From assembly GCA_026196045.1 (NCBI GenBank), contig JAPHRJ010000130.1, positions 1 through 38,719 on the forward strand: a stretch of DNA of 38,719 nt. Reading direction: 5' to 3'. The DNA comes from Gammaproteobacteria bacterium (lineage in GTDB: Bacteria > Pseudomonadota > Gammaproteobacteria > UBA6429 > Thiohalophilaceae). The notes beneath the pieces are model-generated. The model had not been told where the DNA came from and searched no databases. It saw nothing but the letters and a program-made list of their open reading frames with translations. This document shows, piece by piece, positions 3,762 to 14,275 of this stretch (positions within the stretch are counted from its first letter, which is position 1; each line of letters starts with the position of its first letter). The position numbers and the translations under genes are program-made.

Positions 3762-4163
3762 TTACCAGTACATACCCAGTTCGAGTCTGGCCGCTTCACT
3801 GATGCGCTCCTGATTCCAGGGTGGCTCCCAGACCAATGTTATTTTTGCATCCTTAACACCCTCGACAGACTTGACGGCTGTAACCACCTGCTGCGGTAGA
3901 ATCTCTGCAACCGGACAGGCCGGTGCTGTCAGTGTCATGTCTATATCCACAATGGCCTCTTCACTAATACTGACTCGATAAATAAGCCCAAGATCATAAA
4001 TGTTGACATGGATTTCTGGGTCAAACACGGTACGTATGGCGGCGATAACTTTCTGCTGTAAGTCTGCAAAATCAAAATGCCTGTCGCACCTATCCGGCAC
4101 AGATTGATCCTGTTGCGTTTCAGCATTCGATTCCTGTTTTGGATTGGGATGCTTAGTGTCCAT
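3762..4163 (-). CDS. sufT: SufT, MIP18/DUF59 Fe-S maturation factor
   Basis: A protein of 133 residues of the MIP18 (DUF59) family, which helps Fe-S cluster maturation or delivery. The hallmark is FDPEIHVNIYDLGLIY followed by a TLTAPACPVAEILP loop with the conserved cysteine, and the end PPWNQERISEAARLELGMYW is typical of SufT. I chose the ATG at 4163 (protein starting MDTKHPNPKQ), which overlaps the sufD stop by 11 bases. The frame stays open up to 4241, but that longer form would run 89 bases into sufD and its extra residues look unlike the family. The N-terminal ~30 residues are polar and variable. It lies between sufD and sufE. Confidence 0.92.
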   Translation of the reverse strand: MDTKHPNPKQESNAETQQDQSVPDRCDRHFDFADLQQKVIAAIRTVFDPEIHVNIYDLGLIYRVSISEEAIVDIDMTLTAPACPVAEILPQQVVTAVKSVEGVKDAKITLVWEPPWNQERISEAARLELGMYW

Positions 4164-5535
4164 AATTATCGCCACTGCTAACGTTATGGGCATTAAGGGT
4201 ACGCGTAAGGCTATCAACCATGTACAGTCGCAATTCTTCATTCCTGATATTCATCATAATATCTTCGGCAAAGCCCTGGCATAACATTTTGCGTGCCTCA
4301 CTTTCTGCAATACCGCGAGAGCGCAAATAAAACAGGTGTTCCTTATCGAGTCTCCCTACCGTTGTTCCATGACTACATTTCACATCATCGGCATAAATTT
4401 CCAGTTGCGGCTTGGTATTGACTTCTGCATCATTGACTAACAACAGGTTGTCATTCGTTAATACGGCATCACTCTTCTGTGCATGCTTATCGACCAGAAT
4501 TCGTCCATCAAATACGGCGGTTCCTTTGCCATATAAAATTCCTTTGAATTGTTCACGACTACGACATAAAGGTTGTCGATGTTGTACGTCAAGATGGAAA
4601 TCAATAAGCTGTTCATCACCGACGGCATACAGGCCATATAAATCACATTCAGATTGCTCTTCTTCAAAGTTTACTTTGTATTCTGTTCTCGCCCAGGCAC
4701 CGCCCAGGGCCAGACTGGCGCTGTGATAATGACTATTTTTTTTCTGGGTAACATATAGCATACTCAGATGATAGGCCTGACGGCTTTCATCCTGAAAACG
4801 ATAATGTTCAAGCTTCGAACCTTCATCAAGGTAAATTTCAGTTACATTGCTATGAAAATATTTATTGTTTTCACTCTGGTCACTAACAAAATTTTCAATC
4901 ACCTGGACACTGGAACCCTCGTGTAAAAAAATAATATTGCGTGTCTGGATCAAGTTTTCTCTATCGTCCTCTGATGTGGCATGATTCGTATTTAAATAGA
5001 CGATTTCAACAGGATGATCGAGATGAACACCCTGATCAATATTTATAAATACACCATCATTAAACATGGCATCATTGAGAGCGCTAAATTTATCCTTGTG
5101 TAATTTATGCCCATAAATAAAGCTGTATGCCAATTTTTCCGGCATTAAATGTATGGCATCACCAATACTACACACTGTAATCCCGTCATGAAGCTCCTCA
5201 AGATTAGATAGTGACACGGCATAATAGCCATTAATAAAAACCAGACGATAACTTGTTAATGGCGGTAACAAATTGTCATATAGTTCTACATTAGTGAAAC
5301 CACCTGTAGATTCATCAGGCTGAACAAAATTATTCTCAAACAGCTTTTCAATATGATCATAGCGCCAGGCTTCCTGCTTACGATTTAGTAATGGTAATGA
5401 GTTCACAGCCTGTCTGGCATCTTTTCTATACTGGCGTAACCAGTGTGTATTATCTTTTATCAGGAGATCATCCTGATCCAGCACCTGCATAAACCATTCA
5501 CGTTGCTCCTGTTGACGTTGCTGCCTTGATATCAT
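4153..5535 (-). CDS. sufD: Fe-S assembly scaffold subunit SufD
   Basis: SufD pairs with SufB and SufC to form the SufBC2D scaffold on which Fe-S clusters are built. The 460-residue protein shows the family's right-handed beta-helix core, and near the C terminus the strongly conserved KCSHGTTVGRLDKEHLFYLRSRG, which contains the histidine equivalent to E. coli His360, followed by EARKMLCQGFAED. The N-terminal helical region contains RKQEAWRYDHIEKLF, the usual sequence just before the core. The start overlaps the sufC stop by four bases (ATGA), so translation is coupled. The end overlaps sufT by 11 bases. All signs are of an intact gene. Confidence 0.95.
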   Translation of the reverse strand: MISRQQRQQEQREWFMQVLDQDDLLIKDNTHWLRQYRKDARQAVNSLPLLNRKQEAWRYDHIEKLFENNFVQPDESTGGFTNVELYDNLLPPLTSYRLVFINGYYAVSLSNLEELHDGITVCSIGDAIHLMPEKLAYSFIYGHKLHKDKFSALNDAMFNDGVFINIDQGVHLDHPVEIVYLNTNHATSEDDRENLIQTRNIIFLHEGSSVQVIENFVSDQSENNKYFHSNVTEIYLDEGSKLEHYRFQDESRQAYHLSMLYVTQKKNSHYHSASLALGGAWARTEYKVNFEEEQSECDLYGLYAVGDEQLIDFHLDVQHRQPLCRSREQFKGILYGKGTAVFDGRILVDKHAQKSDAVLTNDNLLLVNDAEVNTKPQLEIYADDVKCSHGTTVGRLDKEHLFYLRSRGIAESEARKMLCQGFAEDIMMNIRNEELRLYMVDSLTRTLNAHNVSSGDNYGH

Positions 5536-6284
5536 GCGGCATTCTCCTCAGCAATCCATCCATATCCTTTCTTTTCAAGTTCCAGTGCCAGTCGTTTATC
5601 ACCTGTACGGGCAATACGACCATTAACCAGCACGTGTACGAGATCTGGCTCTATATATTCAAGCAAACGCGGGTAATGTGTTACCAGGATGATTGCACGA
5701 TCAGGACGACGTAATGTATTCACCCCCTGCGCAATAATTCGCAGTGCATCTATATCAAGACCGGAATCTGTTTCATCAAGAATAGCTAGCCTGGGTTCAA
5801 GCATTGCCATCTGTAAAATCTCGTTGCGTTTTTTTTCTCCCCCTGAGAAACCAGCGTTAACATTACGTTTTAACAACTTTTCATCCAGTTGTAATAACGC
5901 CGCTTTTTTACGAACAAGTTTCAGAAATTCTACGGTATCCAGTTCTTCTTCACCTCTGGCTCGGTGAACGGCATTAATGGATTCACGCAGAAACATCATG
6001 TTATTGACACCGGGTAGTTCTACTGGATATTGCATCGCAAGAAAGACACCTAAATGCGCACGTTCTTCCGGTAATAGCTCAAGCAGGTTCTGGTCATCCA
6101 GTAATACCTGCCCATCGGTTACTTCATACCCATCTCGGCCAGCAAGCACATGTGACAGTGTACTTTTACCCGAACCGTTGGGACCCATAATTGCGTGTAC
6201 TTCACCTGCGTTAACATCCAGATCAAGACCGTTTAAGATCTGTTTGTTGTCTACCTTTACCTTCAGGTTTTTTATGTTCAACAT
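5532..6284 (-). CDS. sufC: Fe-S assembly ATPase SufC
   Basis: SufC is the ABC-type ATPase that drives conformational change in the SufBC2D complex. It has 250 residues, the normal length. Walker A GPNGSGKST covers residues 34-42, the SufC form of the signature is FSGGEKKRNE at 146-155, and Walker B is LAILDETDSGLD around 167-178, with the switch histidine in LVTHYPRLL. There is no transmembrane region, as expected. It starts 43 bases after sufB and overlaps sufD by four bases. The identification is unambiguous. Confidence 0.98.
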   Translation of the reverse strand: MLNIKNLKVKVDNKQILNGLDLDVNAGEVHAIMGPNGSGKSTLSHVLAGRDGYEVTDGQVLLDDQNLLELLPEERAHLGVFLAMQYPVELPGVNNMMFLRESINAVHRARGEEELDTVEFLKLVRKKAALLQLDEKLLKRNVNAGFSGGEKKRNEILQMAMLEPRLAILDETDSGLDIDALRIIAQGVNTLRRPDRAIILVTHYPRLLEYIEPDLVHVLVNGRIARTGDKRLALELEKKGYGWIAEENAA

Positions 6285-6327
6285 TCTAATAACCTCTATC
6301 TATAAAGTTCTGAAACCTTATTAATCA

Positions 6328-7785
6328 TTATCCTACGGCCCCTTCCAGGGTCAGGTTCAATAACTTTTGCGCTTCTACAGCAAATTCCATGGGCAACTCA
6401 TTAAACACTTCTTTACAGAAGCCATTAACAATCATGGATACGGCATCTTCTTCTGACAGTCCGCGTTGGCGACAGTAAAACAATTGATCTTCACTGATTT
6501 TTGAAGTCGTTGCTTCATGCTCTACTTCTGCATCGGGATTCATGACTTCAATATACGGGAAAGTATTGGCTGCACACTTGTCGCCCAGTAGTAAGGAATC
6601 ACACTGGGTATGATTGCGCCCGCCCTCTGCGCGTTTTGACATGCGCACCAGTCCACGATAAGTATTCTGCCCATAGCCTGCCGATATCCCTTTCGAAACA
6701 ATGGTGCTGCGAGTGTTGCGTCCAATGTGAAGCATTTTGGTTCCGGTATCAGCCTGTTGTCTGCCCCGAGTCACTGCAACGGAATAAAACTCACCGACTG
6801 AATCATCACCCTGAAGAATACAGCTTGGGTATTTCCATGTAATGGCCGATCCGGTTTCTACCTGGGTCCAGGAAATGTGCGAACGCTTTCCGCGACAGGC
6901 TCCTCGTTTGGTGACAAAGTTATAAATGCCTCCCTTCCCCTGCTCGTTACCGGGATACCAGTTCTGTACAGTGGAATATTTTATAAAGGCATCATCCATT
7001 GCGATCAGTTCGACGACAGCGGCATGCAACTGATTTTCATCACGCATAGGTGCGGTGCAACCTTCCAGATAACTTACGTAACTTCCGGCTTCTGCAATAA
7101 TTAACGTACGTTCAAACTGTCCGGTTTTTGCTTCGTTAATTCTAAAATAAGTGGATAACTCCATGGGACAACGAACACCTTCAGGAATATAGACAAAGGT
7201 GCCGTCAGTAAATACGGCCGCATTGAGGCAGGCATAGAAGTTATCTGCGTAGGAAACGACCGAACCAAGATATTTTTGTACCAGTTCAGGGTGTTTCTGA
7301 ATGGCTTCAGACATTGAACAGAAGATCACACCGGCTTCAGCCAGCTTCTCCTTAAACGTTGTGGCCACAGAAATACTATCAAACACGGCATCGACTGCCA
7401 CTCCGGCAAGGGCTTTCTGCTCTTCCAGTGGAATACCTAATTTCTCATAGGCATGCAGTAATTCTGGATCCACTTCATCCAGGCTTTTTGGACCTTCCCG
7501 TTTCTTTGGTGCGGAGTAATATGAAATGGCCTGAAAATCGATATCGGGATGCTTTGCCTGCGCCCACTGAGGATCTTCCAGAGTCAGCCAACGCCGATAT
7601 GCTTTCAGGCGCCAGTCCAGCACCCATTCGGGCTCATTTTTTCTGGCAGAAATCAAACGGATAACGTCTTCATTCAGACCAGGAGGGAATGTGTCAGATT
7701 CAATCGATGTGACAAAGCCATGCTGGTAGCCGCTGCTGACCAGATCATCGACCGTCGGCTGAGACGTTTTTGGAGCTGAACTCAT
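6328..7785 (-). CDS. sufB: Fe-S assembly scaffold subunit SufB
   Basis: SufB is the central scaffold subunit where sulfur is received and clusters assemble. The protein of 485 residues closely follows the E. coli sequence: the end [18 protein letters not shown] carries the essential cysteine equivalent to Cys405, and [13 protein letters not shown] carries the nearby glutamate. Other markers are [16 protein letters not shown] and [22 protein letters not shown] chose the ATG at 7785 (MSSAPKTSQ) because a perfect GGAGG lies eight bases ahead of it; an ATG at 7800 in the same frame overlaps that ribosome site and lacks its own. It is the first gene of the operon, directly behind an IscR-like site. 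Confidence 0.96.
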
Positions 7786-7793
7786 GATAACAA

Positions 7794-7798
7794 CCTCC
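7794..7798 (-). promoter_or_regulatory. Ribosome site that fixes the sufB start
   Basis: GGAGG on the minus strand lies eight bases before the ATG at 7785. It decides between the two in-frame ATGs at 7800 and 7785 in favour of the downstream one. Confidence 0.8.
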
Positions 7799-7802
7799 AT
7801 CT

Positions 7803-9213: not shown

Positions 9214-10953
9214 ATGGCAGTCAGCACACAAGACATCCGGCAGGAACAGAATCAGGCAGCGTTATTCCCTGTCTATCTGACTACCATGCGCCTTCGCTTT
9301 AAGAATGAAGTAAACCGTCTGACCAGTGGTGGCGCCATGGCTAAACTGCTAGCGGGAAAAGCCGATGCTGCTGACCTTAATTTTCTACTGAGCTACGTTT
9401 ATCTTTTCCACTGGTTACAGCACAACATACCAGAGACACACCGAACAACCGTACTCGAAGGCTTTCGCGGCCAACGTCGCCGTTTCCTGATGGATCTTCT
9501 GTTATCGGATTCCGCTGAAACTTTTGTTCGTGGTTATATTGCGCACTGGTTGCAAACAGGTGCTAATGAAGCCCCCGTGCAACAGCAACAGTTATTACGA
9601 CTGCTTGCTACTCAGAACAATGATACCGACAAACTGGTCAAAGCTATTCTGAATGTCTGGCAATCCCTGGGGCTTTTTACCCAGAGCTACAAAGTAACCT
9701 ATAGTGAACTGGGACATCAGGAACGTGATCGTTATAAGCAGATGTTAGGTAACGAAGATCAGGAACGACTGGCACTGGTGGATGCTTTACCTGATCCCGG
9801 TTTTAAGGGTAAGAAACCACGCTATGCCAAAGCCGGTCTAATACCGGCGATGGGTTGTCCACAAACCTGTCGTCACTGCATGTTTATCTGGCGTCCACCC
9901 AAACCCAGGAATGCTGATCCTGATTTATTGTATAAACTAGTCGATGAACTCACTGATAGTGTGCTGTTTACCGGAGGTGACCTGACTAACCAGCTTGACA
10001 GTTTTTATAATGCTATTAGCAGCATGCCTCATATCAAAAACTTTGCAATTTTATTAAACGGCGATTTTGCAACTGACAAAAAGGCAACGGACGAAGTACT
10101 GCAAGCCATGTCGAAGGCCATAAAAAGTCGTCCGAAAAAATGGGCCAAAGCTAACATTCTGTTACAGATCAGCTTCGATGATTTTCATCAGGAAGTAATT
10201 GTTGATAAGCATGGCAAGTTGAAAGAACGCATTCCTGTTAGCAAGATTGCGAACATCGTCGAACTGGCTCCTCGTTATCACAAACAGATCCAACTGGCCC
10301 TGCTACATAAACAGACCAGTCTTAACTTTTCTATGGACGTGTTCCAGAAAGGTGTATTTGGACGACTGGCAAGAGAATTAGGGAATCGTGGCCATCAGGT
10401 ACAGATATTATCTACTGCTCCCGCTGCAAGAGAAAAACGTAACCCCCTCTCACCCGATAAAACAGCTCCCATTATAAAGGATGCCAGTTTTGTACTGACA
10501 CGTTACCCGGATAACCCAATCCTGTTTACCAGTTCTACTATTGATGCTTATGGTCGTGCTGAGGCAATGGATGAATGGGAAATAGTAAAAGAAAAAGAAT
10601 TATTACAGCAGGTACTGGAACAGGAACCACCACCCGGTGTGAACTTCGATATTGATCTGATGTTGTGGTTCAACGGCTGGGCTACGTTATTCAATGCCGT
10701 ACACATGTGTCTTGGTGATATTTACTCAGATGGTATTGACACTATCCTGGCTCGCCAGCGTAAAGATCCATTGTCACATGCACTGCATCATTTTGATAAA
10801 CGCCTGTTAAGTTTTTATAGCGAAGTGAAAACAGATCTTGATAAGAAGATCGAAGCCGCCACTGGTCCACATCATCTATTCCATATACTGACCGAAGATC
10901 CGGCGGTGCGTCTGCATATGACTCGACGCTTGATTAAAGACCAGACTGTTTAA
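9214..10953 (+). CDS. Radical SAM protein of unknown function
   Basis: A 579-residue protein whose middle carries the radical SAM [4Fe-4S] motif CPQTCRHC, with Cys215, Cys219 and Cys222, and a GGD at 254-256 in place of the common GGE S-adenosylmethionine contact. A largely helical ~200-residue N-terminal region comes first. After the core there is a C-terminal region of about 150 residues rich in aromatic and histidine residues (LMLWFNGWATLFNAVHMC). Only four cysteines exist in the whole protein, so it has no SPASM or other auxiliary cluster of usual kind. The substrate is not known to me. It ends eight bases from the convergent glycosyltransferase-like gene. The ATG at 9214 lacks a strong ribosome site. 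Confidence 0.85.
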   Translation: MAVSTQDIRQEQNQAALFPVYLTTMRLRFKNEVNRLTSGGAMAKLLAGKADAADLNFLLSYVYLFHWLQHNIPETHRTTVLEGFRGQRRRFLMDLLLSDSAETFVRGYIAHWLQTGANEAPVQQQQLLRLLATQNNDTDKLVKAILNVWQSLGLFTQSYKVTYSELGHQERDRYKQMLGNEDQERLALVDALPDPGFKGKKPRYAKAGLIPAMGCPQTCRHCMFIWRPPKPRNADPDLLYKLVDELTDSVLFTGGDLTNQLDSFYNAISSMPHIKNFAILLNGDFATDKKATDEVLQAMSKAIKSRPKKWAKANILLQISFDDFHQEVIVDKHGKLKERIPVSKIANIVELAPRYHKQIQLALLHKQTSLNFSMDVFQKGVFGRLARELGNRGHQVQILSTAPAAREKRNPLSPDKTAPIIKDASFVLTRYPDNPILFTSSTIDAYGRAEAMDEWEIVKEKELLQQVLEQEPPPGVNFDIDLMLWFNGWATLFNAVHMCLGDIYSDGIDTILARQRKDPLSHALHHFDKRLLSFYSEVKTDLDKKIEAATGPHHLFHILTEDPAVRLHMTRRLIKDQTV

Positions 10954-10960
10954 GGCTTAT

Positions 10961-11713
10961 TTATATATCTAACAACACATCAATCAGTTGATCCATTTCT
11001 TTAGCAGAGACTTCCTGCCTTTCACAACTGGAGATACAGAGATTAGCCCCGGTAACTGGCTGGGGAGAATTTTCAATAAATAGATCCAGTGCCGCACCAT
11101 TCCCCTGAAGTATGTCCTTTATCACTAGTGGACTTAACATTCCTGCGGTTTCCATGACAGGAAAAATGGCGATATTATGTAATGCTGTTAATAATTTCGG
11201 GCCGATAAACTGCGAAGGTACAGTTCCTTTATTTAATGACAATAGTCGCTCGGCTGTTTCAATATAAAAGTCTAAAAAGCTATTACTGTCACAAAACATT
11301 AAGAGGGCATTGTGTATTTTTTTATAGAACTTCAATTTACCGGGCTTACCAGACTTAATTGATTTATCTCTCTGAACCCACACTTCTCGCCCCATGGCGT
11401 AGGGAAGATCAGGAAGTATAAATTTTTCAGGATTAAAAATAAGAAAATCAGCATCCAGCCAGACTACGGTTTTATATCCACGACTCAGTGCATCCTGTAA
11501 CGCAACCAAACGTGCAAGATCTGAGGCAATAACACGCTGGTTTTCTAACAGGTCCAGGAATATATCTGGCAAGTAATCAAATAACTCATCACCAATAAAA
11601 TGATATTCATATTGATTGAGAACACACCAGCCCTGAACTGAATCCAGGCAACGCTCAACCCAGGGATAAGGTAAGGGTGAGCAGTGGGATTGAATGACAA
11701 GTGTGTCATACAT
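10961..11713 (-). CDS. GT-A-like glycosyltransferase, putative
   Basis: This 250-residue protein looks like a GT-A fold sugar transferase. Evidence is the start YDTLVIQSHCSPLPYPWVER, the segment VIASDLARLVALQDAL that is typical of enzymes recognising a nucleotide sugar, and a DxD motif in TVVWLDADFLIFNPEKF. No membrane segment or signal peptide is present. The C-terminal third is less typical and could hold the acceptor site. It points toward the radical SAM gene and ends eight bases from it, and it is divergent from sqr with 222 bases between. The donor and acceptor cannot be told; a role in surface polysaccharide or in modifying a small molecule are both possible. Confidence 0.65.
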   Translation of the reverse strand: MYDTLVIQSHCSPLPYPWVERCLDSVQGWCVLNQYEYHFIGDELFDYLPDIFLDLLENQRVIASDLARLVALQDALSRGYKTVVWLDADFLIFNPEKFILPDLPYAMGREVWVQRDKSIKSGKPGKLKFYKKIHNALLMFCDSNSFLDFYIETAERLLSLNKGTVPSQFIGPKLLTALHNIAIFPVMETAGMLSPLVIKDILQGNGAALDLFIENSPQPVTGANLCISSCERQEVSAKEMDQLIDVLLDI

Positions 11714-11935: not shown

Positions 11936-13210
11936 ATGGCACATATCGTTATATTAGGAGCAGGAATTGGCGGACTACCCGCCGCGTTTGAACTCAGACC
12001 AATACTTGAAAAACAACATGAGATCACTGTGATCAACGCTAATGATTACTTTCAGTTTGTCCCGTCTAACCCATGGCTTGCAGTTGGCTGGCGTCAGCGT
12101 GAGGCAATAACTATTCCATTACGAAAAATACTTAATCGCCGCAAGATCAATTTTATTGCTGACTGGGTTGATAAAATTGATGCCGAAGGAAATAAACTTC
12201 AACTTAAAAGTGGTGATGAAATCGATTATGACTACCTGATCATTGCCACTGGTCCCCGCCTGGCCTTTGAAGAAGTAGAGGGCTCCGGTCCAAACAATGG
12301 CTTTACTCAGTCTATCTGTACCGTTGACCATGCAGAAAAATCCTATGAGGACTTCAAACGCCTGATTAAAAATAAAGGCCCGGTGATTGTCGGAGCTGCA
12401 CCCTTTGCCAGTTGCTTTGGCCCCGCTTATGAATACGCCGCCATCGTGGATACTGAGCTAACCCGTCGCAGGATCCGTGATCGTGTACCAATGACCTTCG
12501 TCACCAGTGAACCCTATGTTGGCCATCTTGGTCTGGGGGGTGTCGGTGATTCAAAAGGCATGCTGGAACATGAGTTACGTAACCGTCACATCAATGCCAT
12601 TACCAATGCAAAAGTAACAAAAGTCGAAGAGGGAATGATGTATGTCGATCAGCTCGATAGAAAAGGCGAAATCGAACAGCAACATGAACTTCCTTTCAAT
12701 CACTCTATGATATTACCTGCATTCAAAGGTGTCGATCCCGTCGCGTCTGTTGAAGGTTTATGTAACCCACGTGGATTTGTTCTTGTTGATGAGCATCAGC
12801 GCAATCCTAAATACACAAATATCTATTCAGCTGGTGTTTGCATAGCCATTCCTCCAGTAGAAGTTACTCCTGTTCCCACTGGGGCACCCAAAACGGGGTA
12901 TATGATTGAGTCCATGGTGACTGCAATTATCAAAAACATTAAAGCCGAAATTACTGGCTACCCGGTTGCCTCAAAAGCAACATGGAATGCTTTCTGCCTT
13001 GCCGATCTGGGTGATACCGGTGCGGCCTTCATTGCTCAACCACAAATACCACCGCGTAATATTACCTGGTTTAAAAAAGGCAAATGGGTTCACATGGCAA
13101 AGATTATGTTTGAAAAATATTTCCTCTATAAAATGCGTAGAGGTGTTTCCGAACCCCTGTTTGAAAAATGGGCCCTGAAGATGATGGGTATCGCTAAATT
13201 ACAGCGCTAG
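11936..13210 (+). CDS. sqr: Sulfide:quinone oxidoreductase
   Basis: A 424-residue membrane-associated flavoprotein that oxidises sulfide and passes electrons to quinone. The N-terminal FAD motif is VILGAGIGGLPAAFEL. The three cysteines used for catalysis in the Acidithiobacillus ferrooxidans enzyme (128, 160, 356) have counterparts here at Cys128 (SICTVDH), Cys160 (ASCFGPAYEYA) and Cys354 (NAFCLADLGDTG). The quinone and FAD region has PPVEVTPVPTGAPKTGYMIE, and the amphipathic C-terminal end (EKYFLYKMRRGVSEP) fits peripheral membrane binding. No signal peptide is seen. The ATG at 11936 has a purine-rich ribosome site. The gene stands alone, with a possible operator just upstream. Very confident in family, and the cysteines support real sulfide oxidation. 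Confidence 0.96.
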   Translation: MAHIVILGAGIGGLPAAFELRPILEKQHEITVINANDYFQFVPSNPWLAVGWRQREAITIPLRKILNRRKINFIADWVDKIDAEGNKLQLKSGDEIDYDYLIIATGPRLAFEEVEGSGPNNGFTQSICTVDHAEKSYEDFKRLIKNKGPVIVGAAPFASCFGPAYEYAAIVDTELTRRRIRDRVPMTFVTSEPYVGHLGLGGVGDSKGMLEHELRNRHINAITNAKVTKVEEGMMYVDQLDRKGEIEQQHELPFNHSMILPAFKGVDPVASVEGLCNPRGFVLVDEHQRNPKYTNIYSAGVCIAIPPVEVTPVPTGAPKTGYMIESMVTAIIKNIKAEITGYPVASKATWNAFCLADLGDTGAAFIAQPQIPPRNITWFKKGKWVHMAKIMFEKYFLYKMRRGVSEPLFEKWALKMMGIAKLQR

Positions 13211-13897: not shown

Positions 13898-14275
13898 ATG
13901 AAAAGAAGTCTGTTTGCTCTCCTATTTGTATCCCTGATTATTACCAATGTCTCGGCCGGGACTGTGCGCCCTCAAATAAACCCACTGGATGATATGGCAT
14001 CGTCTGATCATCGTGGTAAAACGCATGGTATAAACCTTAAAAAAGGCAAAGGCCCGAAACCACCTGCTTTTGAATTTCCAAATGATTTTAATCCTGTTAC
14101 TCCCCTCAAAATTGAAGAACTTAGAAACTTTCATGCATATGGGAAAGGTTACAAAGGCTTTGATAAGCCATCTATAAAAGTTAGTCCCGTACCTGTGCCT
14201 GCAGCCGTCTGGTTGTTTATGTCAGGCCTGATTGGAATGGTTGGTATTGCACGTCGCAAAAAATCATTTAAGTAA
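13898..14275 (+). CDS. VPxPA-CTERM (exosortase-sorted) surface protein
   Basis: A 125-residue secreted protein. Residues 1-21 (MKRSLFALLFVSLIITNVSA) are a signal peptide. The end has the full layout of a PEP-CTERM-type sorting signal of the VPLPA subgroup: VPVPA at about residues 98-102, then a membrane helix AVWLFMSGLIGMVGIA, then the basic tail RRKKSFK. Such proteins are processed by an exosortase at the inner membrane; no exosortase is in this window. The mature part of ~75 residues is basic and proline-rich and I do not recognise it. An AAGGAAG ribosome site precedes the ATG. Two hairpins follow the stop, one a strong terminator. Confidence 0.85.
   Translation: MKRSLFALLFVSLIITNVSAGTVRPQINPLDDMASSDHRGKTHGINLKKGKGPKPPAFEFPNDFNPVTPLKIEELRNFHAYGKGYKGFDKPSIKVSPVPVPAAVWLFMSGLIGMVGIARRKKSFK

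Follow-up and report, generated by a model that had tools for sequence, protein, structure and literature searches.

Radical SAM enzymes are encoded beside glycosyltransferases in ArsS/TIGR04283 arsenosugar-type gene sets and in mycofactocin, where the pair is MftC/MftF. A different setting is that of EpeE (YydG, TIGR04078), the peptide epimerase of Bacillus subtilis. A 2021 review reports two [4Fe-4S] clusters in EpeE and a requirement for Cys223, whose proposed part is to terminate the reaction at the alpha-carbon radical, and describes the epimerases as acting independently of a leader (PMC8326336). Here, we compare with these systems a radical SAM protein encoded in a 38,719-nucleotide stretch of gammaproteobacterial DNA (contig JAPHRJ010000130.1 of assembly GCA_026196045.1), hereafter the window, and the family to which it belongs.

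An uncatalogued radical SAM family and its nearest fold

The radical SAM gene (positions 9214..10953, + strand) encodes a protein of 579 aa and is supported by its open reading frame, a match to Pfam Radical_SAM, a 58-sequence alignment and a structural model. Convergent to it lies a gene for a GT-A-like glycosyltransferase of 250 aa (10961..11713, - strand), recognised by fold search. An earlier sequence-only reading had described both frames correctly but placed them eight bases apart, whereas the stop codons are separated by 7 bases. Chance is ruled out for both, given that they are long reading frames conserved across many genomes.

The radical SAM gene is present in 11 of 58 relatives, the window genome included (G000, the window genome, and G001, G003, G013, G015, G020, G024, G029, G034, G036 and G045), and 10 of these carriers sit in the family of the window (37 genomes). 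It was also found in 34 of 398 Pseudomonadota genomes, all except G000 outside the class of the window, and in 33 of the 48 genomes of the class of G062, which we take as Magnetococcia because loci titled Magnetococcales carry the same genes, L054 being identical with L087 and L055 with L114 in the glycosyltransferase tree. A pattern scan in which each species was represented by a single genome, which was the sole coverage of other phyla and may miss distant members, gave 47 loci, five of them titled Magnetococcales and the rest gammaproteobacteria (Sedimenticola, Chromatiales, tubeworm symbionts) or unspecific Proteobacteria and symbionts. The gene was not found in plasmids (PLSDB) or viral contigs. 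In the tree of the radical SAM proteins, the gammaproteobacterial members are cleanly separated from those of Magnetococcia (support 100/100).

For the family alignment, 60 sequences were drawn from a set of 72 with a minimum length of 530 aa and <85% identity, and two truncated rows (L044, L045) were removed to leave 58. The window protein passes Pfam Radical_SAM (PF04055) with 31.6 bits at a cut-off of 29.5, close enough to the limit that a near homologue (L013, 27.6 bits) falls slightly under it, and no Pfam or NCBIfam family beyond this generic superfamily fits. The nearest NCBIfam model is TIGR04078, which the protein fails by a wide margin (22.7 bits, cut-off 300) and which matches weakly (E <= 0.1) in 46 of the 58 homologues. 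Searched against the PDB, a profile of the 58 sequences found EpeE through its positions 210-325 (E 0.0008). Aligned by hhalign with six EpeE-like plasmid proteins, the family matched over 152 core columns at E 5.8e-10, and the C-terminal parts alone gave a non-significant E of 0.15. A literature search of titles and abstract openings found no work on this family. The remark that the protein matches no nameable class was hence largely right, as no curated family tested fits; the family is uncatalogued but has a clear structural parent and is not an orphan fold.

The radical SAM [4Fe-4S] motif CPQTCRHC (residues 215-222; 9856..9879, + strand) has its three cysteines invariant in 58/58 sequences and shares the CxxxCxxC spacing with EpeE. 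Where EpeE has GGE, the window protein has GGD (residues 254-256; 9973..9981, + strand), and this is a trait of the whole family, given that neither glycine (G254, G255) varies and that conservation of D256 reaches at least 90%. A further common element is the SxDxxH motif, SFDDFH in the window protein (residues 320-325; 10171..10188, + strand) and SYDEYH at the aligned place in EpeE; S320, D322 and H325 are invariant in the 58 homologues, as are the serine and histidine in the six EpeE-like proteins.

The main difference lies in the remaining cysteines. The EpeE-like proteins have four extra invariant ones (C221, C222, C288 and C291, in the numbering of the first), whereas among the 58 homologues no cysteine is invariant beyond C215, C219 and C222. 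The sole other cysteine of the window protein, C499 (10708..10710, + strand), is kept in 33 of the 58, namely in 32/36 gammaproteobacterial rows and 1/22 Magnetococcia rows, and is thus not family-wide. Hence, the second-cluster cysteines and the conserved catalytic thiol of EpeE are both missing across the family. The motifs, the single additional cysteine in the C-terminal part and the lack of an auxiliary cluster motif had all been read correctly from the sequence, the last of these being a trait of the family. Nine basic residues are invariant in the alignment (R185, K206, R227, R306, K366, K408, R448, R514 and R566). Separately, the pattern FDxDxMxWxxGxxTLFxAxHxxLG resembles by eye the EpeE cluster region with its cysteines replaced.

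An AlphaFold2 model built on the 58-sequence alignment (mean pLDDT 94.8, pTM 0.91) placed EpeE chains first in Foldseek, at E 2.9e-9 to 9e-9. In VIA-align 2, residues 194-579 of the model aligned with EpeE over 299-307 residues with Z 23.4-24.2 and an rmsd of 3.3-3.6 Å; in one superposition 305 of the 322 EpeE residues were covered (Z 24.2, rmsd 3.4 Å). The next families, anSME and SkfB, reached Z 14.6. The SPASM/twitch enzymes SkfB, SuiB and anSME (Z about 14) have the same core and the general layout of the C-terminal part, but their auxiliary-cluster cysteines are absent from the C-terminal domain of the window family. Among the matches listed, viperin, BlsE, BtrN, DesII, MoaA and others were taken to share the core only and were set aside as parents. 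We conclude that the protein very probably belongs structurally to the EpeE/YydG branch.

Relative to EpeE, the family carries an extra N-terminal domain of about 200 residues (codons 1-200; 9214..9813, + strand), all-helical in the secondary structure of the model, as the sequence-only reading had predicted, and a family trait with W67, W149, R185 and D190 invariant. No Pfam family matched this domain in the window protein itself. A mycoplasma lipoprotein of 1310 aa (the best PDB profile match, E 0.0075) and the NRD1 CID (E 0.03 in a single-sequence search) were judged chance matches, and 21 Pfam families that matched the domain elsewhere were scattered, each in 1-2 of the 58 members. An RRE is a winged helix with beta strands, whereas residues 1-200 form helices only in the full-length model, and no RRE family matched. 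The protein is not of the B12-dependent radical SAM type, judging by the lack of a B12-binding Pfam match and by an N-terminal part that is all-helical and not a cobalamin-binding Rossmann domain.

Gene neighbourhoods in Magnetococcia and gammaproteobacteria

In Magnetococcia, a GT2 glycosyltransferase gene lies upstream of the radical SAM gene. One copy (L064) passes TIGR04283 with 209.3 bits at a cut-off of 182, and several of the longer type fall under that cut-off, at 165-181 bits. In 27 of the 33 radical-SAM-positive Magnetococcia, such a TIGR04283-like gene precedes the radical SAM gene in the same orientation, at a distance of no more than 6 kb; the gap between the two matches is at most 523 bases in 22 of these 27, the ends of the two frames overlap by 1-10 bases in several loci, and the other six carriers have their TIGR04283 match on another contig. 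Simple hydropathy scans gave no transmembrane segment in these glycosyltransferases, or one marginal segment.

In a glycosyltransferase tree, the long type (about 345 aa) is gathered in a single clade, distinct from TIGR04283 proteins of ordinary type (225-245 aa), with support 100/99. Placed with the long type were 27 Magnetococcia carriers, and one (G136) has the ordinary type alone; five carriers with frames of 328-434 aa (G100, G128, G168, G187, G235) stood outside the tree, and L076, L077 and L079 had no row in it. The 15 non-carriers comprise one with the long type (G104, where the radical SAM gene was not found), six with the ordinary type and eight with no match at E <= 1e-20. Because of kinship and genome incompleteness, these counts carry less weight as independent evidence. 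The gammaproteobacterial clade, the window included, does not have this link; the window genome holds a TIGR04283 gene of the ordinary type only, on a separate contig (C91). The arrangement thus recalls ArsS/TIGR04283 and MftC/MftF, in which a radical SAM gene stands beside a TIGR04283- or MftF-like GT2 gene, but it is matched here in Magnetococcia only and with a separate, longer subfamily than ordinary TIGR04283, and the NCBIfam matches of the 58 radical SAM proteins include neither an ArsS-type nor an MftC-type model. In Magnetococcia, the radical SAM family may therefore have a link to sugars.

A glycosyltransferase in the same operon would also suit a small-molecule enzyme like viperin, BlsE or DesII, with one cluster and a nucleotide or nucleotide-sugar as substrate. 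The nine invariant lysines and arginines could accommodate such an anionic substrate, and the fold search returned viperin-like enzymes, BlsE and DesII at lower scores (Z 12-13). However, these scores fall short of EpeE by about 10 Z units and reflect what is common to most radical SAM cores, and we regard this explanation as a less probable alternative.

In gammaproteobacteria no recurrent partner of the gene was seen. From 147 neighbouring proteins, 134 were non-redundant and 125 remained after those of >700 aa were dropped; of these, 121 were scanned and four short ones left out. Among the best 25 of 192 Pfam families, none occurred in more than 4 of the 121 proteins, the commonest being the Macro domain and an AAA family. 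A small precursor gene in relatives, which the first reading had proposed to look for, was sought among frames of 20-110 aa at most 900 bases away in loci with a radical SAM frame of at least 300 aa. None is conserved across gammaproteobacterial lineages, and the small frames that recur there, among the matches listed, are near-identical stretches of tubeworm symbionts. Nine Magnetococcia genomes of two sister families have a 62-aa frame directly downstream, most copies without cysteine; its product may have an accessory role in that branch and cannot be a general substrate of the family.

These neighbourhoods bear on whether the protein is a genuine RiPP epimerase like EpeE, with its precursor encoded elsewhere and, in the gammaproteobacterial clade, C499 as the donor of hydrogen. 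In favour of this, no fold is closer than that of EpeE, C499 is kept in most gammaproteobacterial rows, and leader-independent action is reported for the epimerases (PMC8326336). However, C499 is missing in 21/22 Magnetococcia and 4/36 gammaproteobacterial rows, the second-cluster cysteines are absent, TIGR04078 is missed by far, and no set of epipeptide precursor, peptidase and ABC transporter genes, as at the Macrococcoides epipeptide locus, recurs beside the gene. We consider this explanation improbable.

Several other associations were rejected. The FtsY and SLT transglycosylase genes near Magnetococcia copies were read as reflecting a conserved chromosome position and not as partners, and the proximity of a suf operon, which tubeworm symbionts have in common with the window, was not counted, as gene order differs and the lineages are too few. 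A link to sulfur oxidation was dismissed: DsrA was over the cut-off in 9/11 carriers versus 24/47 non-carriers, and inside the family of the window (37 genomes) in 8/10 carriers and 20/27 non-carriers, with no clear association. Nitrogen fixation fared no better, with NifH over the cut-off in 1/11 carriers (2/11 at E <= 1e-60) and 7/47 non-carriers, and the same holds for magnetosomes in Magnetococcia, where MamA at E <= 1e-30 was found in 29/33 carriers versus 14/15 non-carriers.

The convergent glycosyltransferase of the window

Neither Pfam nor NCBIfam gave a match to the 250-aa neighbour at E <= 1. The model of this protein, of modest quality (pLDDT 73), matched GT-A enzymes in 56 chains at E <= 0.001, including chlorella virus glycosyltransferase 2p72, beta-1,4-galactosyltransferase and glycogenin, and the DxD motif (DAD, residues 87-89; 11447..11455, - strand) has D87 and D89 invariant in four aligned sequences. 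The assignment of a GT-A-like enzyme with a DxD motif, made from the letters alone, is borne out at this model quality. Homologues in relatives are full length, with 63-68% identity.

The gene is present in 7 of the 58 relatives (G000, G002, G016, G019, G026, G027, G032), and with 11 carriers of one gene and 7 of the other, G000 is the only genome with both. None of the flanking genes of the window were seen around four glycosyltransferase homologues, whose contexts elsewhere are unrelated. No relative of the enzyme was found among the frames picked at 86 other radical SAM loci, in a neighbour listing of 87 places that missed the radical SAM gene itself at six (L012, L016, L029, L065, L068, L075). 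Because G000 alone stands in both carrier lists, the pairing is best read as chance.

That the two genes act jointly on a modified sugar or peptide, as first proposed from their adjacency and from the GT-A fold and DxD motif of the neighbour, is thus very improbable: convergent genes do not form one operon, the two co-occur in 1/58 relatives, and the other loci have no counterpart of the glycosyltransferase. The homologues are scattered without the pairing, and the convergent glycosyltransferase appears to be a chance neighbour outside the radical SAM system. What survives of the idea is a pairing with a glycosyltransferase of another family, the TIGR04283-like GT2, in Magnetococcia.

Proposed function and significance

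We propose that the product of the radical SAM gene is a stand-alone enzyme with a single [4Fe-4S] cluster, belonging structurally to the branch of EpeE/YydG. Its C-terminal part would descend from the auxiliary-cluster region of EpeE after loss of the cluster ligands, a homology for which the evidence is the fold search. The enzyme would cleave SAM, and the resulting 5'-deoxyadenosyl radical would abstract a single hydrogen at a C-H bond in a substrate that is probably delivered in trans, with the helical domain as a candidate binding site for the substrate or a partner. Return of the hydrogen by the cysteine route of EpeE is improbable, given that a conserved thiol is absent. A sugar-containing or phosphorylated substrate, such as a glycan, a glycolipid or a nucleotide sugar, seems somewhat likelier than a free peptide in view of the operon in Magnetococcia and of how many lysines and arginines are invariant; on its own, this choice of substrate is a tentative guess. 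To the combined reading, a one-cluster enzyme of the EpeE branch with a substrate in trans and a slight preference for a sugar or phosphorylated compound, we assign a probability of roughly 0.55. A bolder version, which we put forward only as speculation, is a new carbohydrate-acting class, in which a peptide-epimerase scaffold without its auxiliary cluster and thiol, and with an added helical substrate-binding domain, would modify a glycan or glycolipid together with the dedicated glycosyltransferase of Magnetococcia.

For the window, a tempting but wrong functional pairing is corrected. If the proposal is true, the protein stands for a radical SAM family that is not yet catalogued and whose structural parent is clear, and a comparison of two related enzymes could then test what the loss of the second cluster and the thiol does on the EpeE scaffold. 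It would also define a two-gene unit for knock-out in Magnetococcia, most of whose genomes carry the radical SAM gene.

Suf-like and flavoprotein genes near the radical SAM gene

At 4153-7800 the window holds genes resembling SufB/SufC/SufD, names that were assigned by eye only. In tubeworm symbionts (loci L023, L024, L025, L027 and L043), genes from the same sequence clusters occur close to the radical SAM gene too, arranged in an order other than that of the window. The product of window positions 11936-13210 scores 109 bits with NF049943, versus a cut-off of 525, and is akin to the type III sulfide quinone reductases; in another of the compared loci, L018, the radical SAM gene is adjoined by a gene for a flavocytochrome c sulfide dehydrogenase-like flavoprotein. 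A small protein encoded at 13898-14275 of the window carries a VPLPA-CTERM/PEP-CTERM sorting signal.

Variation at the radical SAM gene in other genomes

In nine Magnetococcia genomes from two families, a conserved 62-aa ORF lies directly 3' of the radical SAM gene and on the same strand (L064, 3152-3340; L055, 6650-6904; and seven further Magnetococcia genomes), with the conserved motifs SDLTxLKxxLLKGMP, ILDY and FMP in this order. In a draft genome of Candidatus Endoriftia persephone (L051, 813-2531), the radical SAM frame itself is broken into ORFs of 344 and 153 aa, which may reflect decay or a sequencing error.

Plasmid loci with EpeE-like radical SAM genes

Genes for radical SAM proteins resembling the peptide epimerase EpeE are found on plasmids of the Firmicute Lactococcus lactis (L159, 1936-3475), the archaeon Halocatena salina (L161, 1913-3514) and the betaproteobacterium Eleftheria terrae (L163, 2040-3493), each immediately preceded by a gene for a hypothetical protein of 129-177 aa. 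On Thermus aquaticus plasmid pTA14 (L160, 1512-3818), the EpeE-like radical SAM gene comes after the gene for a protein of 301 aa, which has an Asn-rich stretch close to its C-terminus, and before an SdpI-family gene; this locus looks like an undescribed RiPP locus.
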